Positions 30,330 to 54,940 of a stretch of 64,000 nt of DNA are shown here, piece after piece (position 1 is the first letter of the stretch; the number at the start of each line of letters is the position of its first letter). The notes under the pieces were generated by a model that had not been told where the DNA came from, ran no database searches, and saw only the letters and a program-made list of their open reading frames with translations. The translations under genes were made by a program, and so were the position numbers. The DNA comes from Hyphomicrobiales bacterium (GTDB lineage: Bacteria > Pseudomonadota > Alphaproteobacteria > Rhizobiales > Beijerinckiaceae): NCBI GenBank assembly GCA_930633495.1, contig CAKNFJ010000001.1:4053001-4117000 (forward strand). The letters run 5' to 3'.

Positions 30330-30900
30330 TCATTCGGCGGCTTCGCGCTGGTCTAGCTCGCCGGCCGCGAGCCAGCGCTCGGCATCGAGGGCGGCCATGC
30401 AGCCCAAGCCGGCCGCCGTGACAGCCTGACGATAATGCTCGTCGGTGACGTCGCCCGCCGCGAAGACCCCCGGAACGTTGGTGCGGGTGGTGCCGGGCTC
30501 GACGTCGATATAACCGGAATCGCGCATGACGAGCTGGTCGACGAAGAGCTCCGTCGCCGGCTTGTGGCCGATCGCGATGAAGACGCCGTCGGCCTTCAGC
30601 TCGCTCTCGACGCCTGTCTTGGTGTTGGTCAGGCGCAGGTGGGTGACGTTGGGCGGCTGCGTGCCGCCGCAGATCTCGGCGATGGCGCTGTCCCAGACGA
30701 CCTCGATCTTCGGATGCTTGAACAGGCGCTCCTGCATCACACGTTCGGCACGCAGATGGTCGCGGCGGTGGACCAGCGTGACCTTGCTGGCGAGATTGGC
30801 GAGATAGAGCGCCTCCTCGACCGCGGTGTTGCCGCCACCGACGACCACGACCTCCTTGTTGCGGAAGAAGAAGCCGTCGCAGGTGGCGCAGGCGGAGACG
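30330..30900 (-). pseudogene. trxB: 3' part of host thioredoxin reductase gene, cut by the island
   Basis: This holds the C-terminal 187 residues of the host TrxB, beginning at ACATCDG with the redox-active CATC pair. It includes the NADPH-binding [14 protein letters not shown] and the FAD-closing [21 protein letters not shown]. The reading frame continues 20 codons into the island to an ATG at 30,959, but without the N-terminal FAD-binding half it cannot be an active reductase. Its missing 5' part is at 54,453-54,853. Joined at the core the frame is intact and gives 321 residues, a normal TrxB length. Confidence 0.92.
30895..30900. other. Left 6-bp core (attachment site) GAGACG
   Basis: The last six host bases before the element end read GAGACG; the right copy at 54,453-54,458 reads GAAACG. 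Removing the element and one core rebuilds the trxB frame (Gly-Val-Ser-Ala-Cys). A short flanking core that may differ at the two ends is known for Tn554-type transposition. The exact cut position is inferred. Confidence 0.55.
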
Positions 30901-30926
30901 AAATGCCCCTCCCGGGTGATACTGTG
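30901..30926. repeat. Left terminal inverted repeat
   Basis: The left end shares CCCCT and, six to seven bases further in, the perfect 9-mer GATACTGTG with the reverse complement of the right end (54,426-54,452). The 9-mer begins 17 bases from the left boundary and about 18 from the right one, so the ends are nearly symmetric. Confidence 0.7.
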
Positions 30927-31036
30927 AAACAAAGTCAGGGACCTTGAAGCGGACGTCATTAACTAATCGTTCACCGTCAAAAATCTACCTAAAGTGGATG
31001 GAGTCGGGGCTTGAATAGCGCGGGGGCTGGGTAGAC

Positions 31037-32467
31037 GTGGCGCAGGGGGCGAATCCGAAAACATTCTCGATCTTTGACATTCAAACCACGATATCAGGGA
31101 AGCTACTCCCCATAGTCATGTTCGATGTCCCGACCGGAGAGCCGCGGCCGTTACGAGAGCTGACGGAATTTCTGTATCATAAACTCCGCCAAGGCATGTC
31201 GTACGAAAAACTGAGGTCGATGGCGAACACGGTTGGCTTGTTGCACGACTTTCTAGTCCTGCATGAGGGAGGCAAGGCCGTAACGGCGGAAAGCCTTCCA
31301 TCTCTCATTCTCGGTTTTTTTGTCTCGCGTACCGGTGGAACGATTGGAACTAACAATCAAGACCCGAGCGGATTGTATTGGGCTCCTGTCGGCTATGATT
31401 CCTATAAGATGGATCGCCGAAATCTACGTTCATTCTCTGAATACTGTCTTAAGACTTATGGTTTCTTGCCTCTTACGCCGACTATTTCTACGCTCAGTGC
31501 GAGCCAGAACGGGCCTAGCCATGCTGATATTCGCGCAGAGTTTCAGCGTTCAAAGCATGAATTTCTGGCCCATCTGCGGCGATGGCGTGAGAGGAGGCCT
31601 GAGTACGGCCCCAACATTAGCGGGCGGGCGGCGCCTAAAAGGACCGGGAATCCGACGAACAGATCTTATATTCCGTTAAACGAACTTCGCGAGCTAATTC
31701 TTTCCACGAAAAGCGTCGTTCAACGCATGGTGTTCGTTTTGGGTGCATTCGGCGGTTGCCGGATTTCAGAACAGCTAAACATCTGGCGTGAAGATGTTCT
31801 ACCTGGTCTTTATCGACCGATTTTATTTCCCGATGATCAACCCTCCGACGTGCCGCTCGTCATCCTGGCGCATCCGTTTGATGGCCAATACTTGGGCCGG
31901 ATGTCGATTGACGGAGCGACTCGGCATCAGGAGCTGCAGCGGACATACAACCGTAGGCCTCGGCCAGCGCTGATCAAGAGTGATCGAGCCGGCTGGAAAG
32001 GTATGTTGATGGATAACGAGCAGCTCCAGATTAGCCAAATTTTTTGGACAAGCGAAGCATGGGCTGCCTACTATTTTCAGCTTACTATGGAGCTTAAAGA
32101 GCGGATATTTCCACAAATTCCAACTTCTGTTAGGCGGTCTCACCCTTATATTCTTATCAATGACGATCCAGGCACCGAATTCTTCGGTCAACCTCTTAAA
32201 TTGAGTAACGTGCGAAAAGCTTGGGAGCGAGCGTGTCGCCGGATAGATCGTGTTCCATATCGGGGAGCCTACCATCTTCACGGTCTCCGCGACACGTATG
32301 TACGAACGCTCCGGCTTTGTAAGGAGATCACCGCGGCTGAGCGCCAGCGCTATTTGCACCACGCCAGCATCGAAAGCCAAAATCCTTACGGGAACGATCC
32401 GCGAATCCTGCACGAGCGCTTGAAAATTCTGGAAGAGCAGCAGCCTTCTCTACGGAGCATTCGATGA
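31037..32467 (+). CDS. Tyrosine recombinase 1 of the island (GmtY/TnpA-like)
   Basis: A 476-residue site-specific recombinase. The catalytic set is visible: Arg242 in GGCRISEQLN, His415 and Arg418 in HLHGLRDTY, His441/442 in YLHHASIES, and the nucleophile candidate Tyr451. The N-terminal 200 residues form a SAM-like core-binding region. It starts with GTG 136 bp from the element end and its stop overlaps the next gene (ATGA). Size and order match the first recombinase of the gamma-mobile-trio (GmtY) and, more distantly, Tn554 TnpA. G+C is clearly below that of host genes. Confidence 0.8.
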   Translation: MAQGANPKTFSIFDIQTTISGKLLPIVMFDVPTGEPRPLRELTEFLYHKLRQGMSYEKLRSMANTVGLLHDFLVLHEGGKAVTAESLPSLILGFFVSRTGGTIGTNNQDPSGLYWAPVGYDSYKMDRRNLRSFSEYCLKTYGFLPLTPTISTLSASQNGPSHADIRAEFQRSKHEFLAHLRRWRERRPEYGPNISGRAAPKRTGNPTNRSYIPLNELRELILSTKSVVQRMVFVLGAFGGCRISEQLNIWREDVLPGLYRPILFPDDQPSDVPLVILAHPFDGQYLGRMSIDGATRHQELQRTYNRRPRPALIKSDRAGWKGMLMDNEQLQISQIFWTSEAWAAYYFQLTMELKERIFPQIPTSVRRSHPYILINDDPGTEFFGQPLKLSNVRKAWERACRRIDRVPYRGAYHLHGLRDTYVRTLRLCKEITAAERQRYLHHASIESQNPYGNDPRILHERLKILEEQQPSLRSIR

Positions 32468-54340: not shown

Positions 54341-54425
54341 GGCGTGTTCCCTGAGGTCGGTTCAGGCGGCGATCGGAGTATGTATCCGAGTATGGCAACT
54401 ACCACTAACTTCCTGTTTTAAAACA

Positions 54426-54452
54426 CACAGTATCTCGGACAGGGGAATATTA
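54426..54452. repeat. Right terminal inverted repeat
   Basis: Its reverse complement reads inward through CCCCT then GATACTGTG, matching the left end at 30,901-30,926 with differences in the 6-7 bases between these blocks. Confidence 0.7.
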
Positions 54453-54458
54453 GAAACG
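54453..54458. other. Right 6-bp core (attachment site) GAAACG
   Basis: The first host bases after the element; the left counterpart is GAGACG. The G/A difference changes the trxB valine codon from GTC to GTT, silent at the protein level, and suggests that one core was brought in from a previous site. Confidence 0.55.
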
Positions 54459-54940
54459 CCGAAGCCCTGGAAGCTCTGCTCGGAGGGCAGGCCGAGCCAC
54501 TTGGCCTGGGCGCCGGTGGCGATGATCAGTGCGTCGCAGGAATAGGTCTCGCCGCCATCGCCCCAGAGTCGGAACGGCCGCTGCGAGAGGTCGACGCGGG
54601 CGATGTGGTCGGAGACCATCTTCGTGCCCATGTGCTCGGCCTGGGCGCGCATCTGCTCCATCAGCCAAGGGCCCTGGATCACATCGGCGAAGCCGGGATA
54701 ATTCTCGACATCGGTGGTGATCATCAGCTGGCCGCCGGCTTGCATGCCGGAGATCAGGACCGGCTCCAGCATGGCGCGGGCGGCGTAGATCGCGGCGGTG
54801 TAGCCGGCCGGGCCGGAGCCGACGATCATGACGCGGGCGTGGGTATGGGCCATCGTCTCAATTCCTCTCCTGCGGACGGGGGGCCGCAGCTTCGATCCGT
54901 CAGATACGGCGGCGTGGCGCCGAAACAAGAGCCGTCGGGT

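Follow-up and report, generated by a model that had tools for sequence, protein, structure and literature searches.

Many integrative elements spare their host by inserting in tRNA genes or at gene ends. Islands that repair their target carry the missing end only, whereas at the locus analyzed here the insertion was internal and the carried gene was complete. The target gene of Tn554 is radC, and we know of no carried target copy for this element. Gamma-mobile-trio (GMT) elements (Mahata et al. 2024, Nat Microbiol), as represented by NCBIfam models and by papers citing that work, have recombinases homologous to those found here and the same gene order, GmtY-GmtZ-GmtX. The Tn554 family, by the description in the accessible portion of PMC10214605, likewise combines two tyrosine recombinases, one of them large, with a third small protein, a target inside a gene and a 6-bp footprint. 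The strand-biased circularizing elements (SEs) in the same portion of that source have the order intA-tfp-intB-srap, while here the large recombinase directly follows IntA; an SE insertion into bcp is described there, and the portion at hand mentions no carried copy (PMC10214605). GInts, as described in the available text of PMC5385486, resemble the present element in having a recombinase operon at one end and site-specific insertion, in several cases near or in a conserved gene (ssb), but differ from it in lying at gene ends or in intergenic positions, probably without fully inactivating the target. Engineered home-and-rescue gene drives (PMC7968924, in the part available) also join insertion in an essential gene to a rescue copy; however, they are synthetic, CRISPR-based and used in insects, and the likeness is one of strategy only. 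In the literature on trxB islands, gapR, replacement copies and GMT elements, in so far as it was accessible, no report of a split target together with a complete carried copy was found, and the GMT founding paper may contain related remarks.

The window, that is, the whole stretch of DNA that was analyzed (64,000 nucleotides from a Hyphomicrobiales bacterium, contig CAKNFJ010000001.1), contained a host thioredoxin reductase gene, trxB (321 codons), interrupted by a 23.56-kb element immediately 5' of the codons for the CATC active site. The element corresponded to positions 30900-54451 plus one 6-bp core (23,558 bp); the coordinates 30330..54853 given in the original prediction also include the split gene itself. 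The features were as follows:

30330..30899, minus strand: 3' part of host trxB, including the stop codon and the attL core
30894..30899, minus strand: left core (attL) GTCTCC, encoding Val-Ser
30900..30926, plus strand: left terminal sequence, GAAATGCCCC-8 nt-GATACTGTG, inverted relative to the right end
31037..32467, plus strand: IntA, GmtY-like tyrosine recombinase, 476 aa (GmtY 160 bits, E 1.1e-46, cut-off 340)
32464..35937, plus strand: IntB, large GmtZ-like tyrosine recombinase, 1157 aa (Pfam Integrase_2 and Phage_integrase; GmtZ 263.8 bits, E 2.6e-78, cut-off 600)
35943..36725, plus strand: GmtX-like protein (NCBIfam GmtX 15.5 bits, E 0.0096, cut-off 40)
36559..37194 (searched from 36640), plus strand: small DUF6262-like protein (Pfam DUF6262 20.6 bits, below the cut-off of 29)
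37113..39395, plus strand: RecD2-like helicase (NCBIfam RecD2 322.8 bits, cut-off 500)
39971..52817, no strand assigned: cargo with Pfam matches to an HTH regulator, two SDR proteins, an alginate-export-like porin, MarC, Usp, a zinc alcohol dehydrogenase, a cation P-type ATPase, a ferric-reductase-like protein, DUF2721 and a transposase fragment (DDE_3)
53339..54340, minus strand: complete carried trxB, 333 aa, active site CAVCDG, starting 21 bp past the stop of the truncated host frame
54426..54451, minus strand: right terminal sequence, AATATTCCCC-7 nt-GATACTGTG, read from the sequence
54452..54457, minus strand: right core (attR) GTTTCT, encoding Val-Ser, delimited by the 6-bp footprint rule given in the available part of PMC10214605
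54458..54853, minus strand: 5' part of host trxB, 132 codons up to the Gly of GFG

Joined in frame, the two halves of host trxB encoded 321 residues with no stop, as the original prediction had claimed for an island of about 23.5 kb, and the junctions, read directly, agreed with its placing of the 5' half at the right end and the 3' half at the left end, with the cut at Val-Ser of GFGVS. The unbroken trxB expected in related genomes was also found, the rejoined protein sharing 88-94% identity with eight TrxB proteins of the same genus. Matches to trxB (TIGR01292) were obtained in 61/61 genomes of the genus, own genome included, and exceeded the cut-off in 60/61 (60/60 and 59/60, respectively, for the other genomes); a separate trxB 3' piece was present in none of the 60 other genomes. 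One of these genomes (G025) had a single trxB match, to positions 2-231. A second complete trxB was observed in three other genomes of the genus (loci L120, L121 and L122 of G004, G429 and G009, at about 8200-9450), with 58-63% identity to both the carried and the host TrxB of the window, and one of these genes was located on a 692-kb contig.

The last gene inside the right end, described in the original prediction as a complete, diverged trxB in the same orientation, proved to be just that. Located just inside the element end adjoining the host 5' half and read in the direction of the host gene, it encoded a protein with 60% identity to host TrxB over 316 columns, which scored 395 bits against TIGR01292 (cut-off 343) and could be aligned over its full length with thioredoxin reductases of known structure, its CAVCDG motif falling in the expected position. 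By identity, the proteins closest to it were TrxB of the Azospirillum order (66-68%), above the host's own. At 55.0%, its GC content was below that of host trxB (67.6%), of the island (59.7%) and of the flanks (about 66%). A second intact host-type trxB was sought elsewhere in the genome and none was found: the carried gene was the sole match over the cut-off, and the next one besides the two halves reached 129 bits. At 52119-52817, past the cargo and before the carried trxB, two frames held remains of a DDE_3 transposase.

IntA, IntB and the GmtX-like protein formed a trio of genes in the order GmtY-GmtZ-GmtX, all in one direction (31037-36725, plus strand). Their three scores fell below the curated NCBIfam cut-offs, which separates the element from described GMT elements, and the recombinases of the second trxB element presented below also remained under them (GmtY 172 bits, GmtZ 270.6 bits). 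The SE gene order was not found, as the large recombinase overlapped the end of IntA with no frame between the two. Downstream of the trio, DUF6262-like and RecD2-like genes were present in the window and at loci L017, L021, L024 and L025, and had no match in L019, L020, L023 and L026 (L023 and L026 read in part). Among 18 IntA/GmtY proteins compared in a tree, seven GmtY relatives from other lineages were placed apart (100/99), and the window's group of ten, as well as that group plus an Azonexus plasmid protein, was recovered with 100/99 each. Judged by sequence, then, the element can be regarded as distant kin of GMT, below the thresholds of the GMT models; the type of element is one already known.

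When 84,980 species genomes were scanned with the IntB alignment, 10 relative loci were obtained, seven of which (one trxB, six gapR) had the matched design of interrupted and carried gene, a proportion that makes chance an implausible source of the arrangement. For the other three (L018, L019 and L022), no target gene beside the trio was identified. In L018 (Roseicella, 10,172-bp contig), which is closely related to the trxB and gapR elements, neither of these genes lay beside the trio, and a third target is possible. Beyond Pseudomonadota, L019 and L022, MAGs labelled Opitutaceae and Gemmataceae (4.5-kb contig), respectively, contained relatives of the trio. Besides known genomes, the IntA profile matched at least 5/398 genomes at E 1e-10, 0/61 at E 1e-10 and 0/82 at E 1e-30, and among the candidates scored 0/395 and 0/397; in the sets of 398, 395 and 397 genomes mostly four candidates per genome were scored, with misses possible. 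At the five distant GMT-like relatives from the set of 398, neither a split gene nor a carried copy was evident by eye within about 2.5 kb. With the single IntA protein as query, 3/61 genomes gave matches (itself, one at 29% identity and one broken fragment), as did 2/337 (itself and Kiloniella). Plasmid records matching IntA and IntB numbered 134 (30 among the matches listed) and 143, respectively, all with <60% identity, while no relatives were found in phages at E 1e-5 or, in three scans, in viral contigs. In another genome of the same genus (G036, L016), a distant GmtY-like recombinase was observed at about 7391-8530, a few hundred bases from the apparent end of dnaE2, which by eye was apparently not split.

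The second trxB element (L017/G397) came from a genome labelled Roseomonas genomospecies 6 and placed in the Azospirillum order. Its trxB 3' part (85814-86371), complete copy (119232-120134) and 5' part (120273-120656) were on one strand of one contig, the complete copy was the sole match over the cut-off, and the junctions fell at Val-Ser codons matching those of the window. By eye, its cargo (L048, 40-9767) was unlike the window's and included large proteins resembling a competence-type nuclease, an ATPase and an Hsp70-like protein. The check proposed with the original prediction, whether islands with such recombinases sit in trxB and carry a trxB at the same end, had a positive outcome for this element, and the design extended to a second target, gapR, in the six others, which carry gapR. 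The interpretation given there was supported. Islands in trxB without a carried copy were not found, the sole other trxB island carrying trxB at the same end.

The six gapR genomes, selected because their locus falls in this recombinase clade, were G400 (Magnetospirillum), G401 (Azospirillum), G402 (Tardiphaga), G403 (Paeniroseomonas), G404 (Kiloniella) and G405 (Sneathiella). The 3' end of gapR was encoded left of IntA in L021 and L024, and a search with PF10073 detected a split gapR and a complete gapR beside its 5' half in 6/6 genomes, with junctions at identical Gly-Phe codons in all of them; in the genomes of the window and G397, gapR matches were complete only (one and two, respectively). 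Besides the carried gapR, G404 had a further gapR-like gene (73 bits), so the carried one is not unique there. A single contig held the two halves together with the carried gene in the window, G397, G400, G401 and G402, where the elements spanned from piece to piece about 23.6, 33.9, 31.6, 20.0 and 62.3 kb, respectively; in G403, G404 and G405 the halves were on different contigs. In 8/8 elements the reading direction of the trio led off from the 3' half or toward the 5' half. In the window, G397, G401 and G403 it lay at the 3' half; in G404, G402 and G400 it lay 3.3, 16 and 25.6 kb off, respectively. In G400 and G405 it adjoined the carried gapR, about 0.2 kb away. The order of trio and cargo was variable among gapR elements. 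A single trio lay between the halves in G400 and G402, where no second IntA match was detected.

In all eight elements the carried gene was the same as the interrupted one and had the same direction. A split target, exact ends and a complete copy in the same direction constitute an architecture common to eight elements with two targets. A stress island with trxB as just another cargo gene, matched to the interrupted gene by coincidence, would fit the additional presence of Usp, an alcohol dehydrogenase and a ferric-reductase-like gene; yet the second trxB element has other cargo and trxB at the same end, and the six gapR elements, each carrying gapR, ruled this reading out, leaving it with practically no probability. 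Alternatively, the host might have had two trxB genes beforehand, by tandem duplication or earlier acquisition, of which the element struck one, as the second complete trxB of three other genomes of the genus could indicate. However, no trio was present within the 18 kb read around each of those extra genes, and in 8/8 elements the complete copy lay inside the terminal sequence, with the element end between the copy and the host 5' half, a position that ruled out tandem duplication; we regard a prior pair of copies as very improbable.

The ends were defined to the base. On the minus strand, the right junction read GGC, the core GTTTCT and AATATTCCCC, and the left junction GGGGCATTTC, the core GTCTCC and GCC. 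At both ends CCCC was followed by GATACTGTG, 7 or 8 bases further in and in inverted orientation, and the second trxB element had an equal plan, with CATACTG 8 or 9 bases after CCCC. Run on each end by itself, a repeat finder detected no inverted pair. The window's two cores were unlike in sequence, yet Val-Ser was encoded by each. Among the eight elements, the right core encoded Val-Ser in 2/2 trxB elements and Gly-Phe in 5/6 gapR elements (Gly-Leu in G401), and the left core Val-Ser in 2/2 and Gly-Phe in 5/6 (Gly-Tyr in G402). Left and right 6-bp cores differed in 7/8 elements (the exception being G400), as in SE/Tn554-like elements. In G400 and G402 the first element bases after the core were TAA (right ends, L055, L056 and L051), so that the host gapR fragment ends in a stop codon right at the junction. 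Judging from these ends, the element probably moves as SEs and Tn554 do. According to the available part of PMC10214605, a new insertion of an SE or of Tn554 has the donor's left six bases at its right end; by this rule GTTTCT would come from an earlier site also encoding Val-Ser, most simply another trxB, and the right-end core would be its footprint. The need for homology in strand exchange could be an alternative factor favouring Val-Ser cores.

The recombinases of trxB and gapR elements formed separate clades (100/99 and 100/98). When trxB, gapR and other targets were mapped as labels on the recombinase tree, the minimum possible of 2 changes was sufficient, a value equalled by 0/200 shuffles. 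The grouping of recombinases by target suggests that recombinase goes with target. In the case of the carried gapR genes, starred branches forced at least 5 changes, and the data spoke against a single ancestral rescue gene for gapR elements, as these genes did not form a monophyletic group. Carried and host gapR paired in G400, G403 and G404 (starred branches) and, less firmly, in G402 (90/81), but not in G401 and G405; such grouping indicates that the rescue gene was renewed from host lineages or has long been resident there. The recoding of the site in carried copies, as a form of self-immunity, was not supported in the 8 pairs, where the 10-codon stretch at the site was as unlike as 0.08-0.62 of all stretches.

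Both TrxB and GapR influence a wide range of processes in the cell. With such broad effects, and with a carried TrxB that is of foreign type and diverged (60% identity), the carried gene might be more than a rescue, namely a version suiting the element through, for instance, altered redox control or escape from something acting on the host protein. Against this, the carried gapR genes cluster with the gapR of the respective hosts, as plain substitution predicts, and the carried gapR of G400 is 91% identical to the host gene; we consider such a tailored version unlikely.

TrxB is important for the cell, and GapR is essential in Caulobacter. The trxB and gapR islands suggest mobile elements that disable a needed gene while supplying a substitute. 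We judge it highly probable that the window holds a GMT-like integrative element that inserts site-specifically in conserved housekeeping coding DNA and keeps the host working with a complete copy of the gene. A coding stretch held constant by its protein would offer a lasting landing site; insertion would destroy the host gene, and the complete copy would take over. We infer that the carried copy is expressed, that it is needed and that the element moves. As the truncated 5' frame leads straight into the carried gene, transcription would come from the host gene's own promoter. In a scan for promoters and terminators, a weak test, one promoter-like site was detected, inside the carried trxB, where 0.7 were expected.

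Transcription of the carried copy could also start from a promoter of the element itself; the recombination mechanism, or the way in which the copy was captured, would then explain why it follows the host 5' fragment. In the gapR elements 101-156 bp separate the stop codon of the truncated host frame from the carried start, which leaves room for such a promoter, but in the window the gap is only 21 bp (63 bp in G397); moreover, position and direction were constant in 8/8 elements, and the same weak scan revealed no promoter-like site upstream of the carried start on its strand. An internal promoter is accordingly possible but doubtful. Under transcription from the host promoter, a host that lost the carried gene by deletion would be deprived of its function, so that the element might persist with no toxin-antitoxin pair. 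Whichever core remained, exact excision would give back Val-Ser and an uninterrupted host TrxB in the window. Over time, carried copies may have been renewed from host lineages, or the elements may have been long resident in them.

We think it likely, with less confidence than for the reading of the window itself, that this clade lives by target substitution, with a recombinase for each conserved stretch and a rescue copy behind the host promoter, for trxB, gapR and perhaps other genes. It would be a natural counterpart of home-and-rescue designs, an island hard to lose without a toxin, in which a change of target would need a matched recombinase and rescue gene and rescue genes would be refreshed from host lineages. 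Elements of this kind insert in the central coding part of conserved genes, at the price of carrying a full substitute. If this holds, highly conserved DNA would be opened as a landing site, the way in which an island enforces its own upkeep without a toxin would be explained, and a route for the exchange of core genes between lineages would exist.
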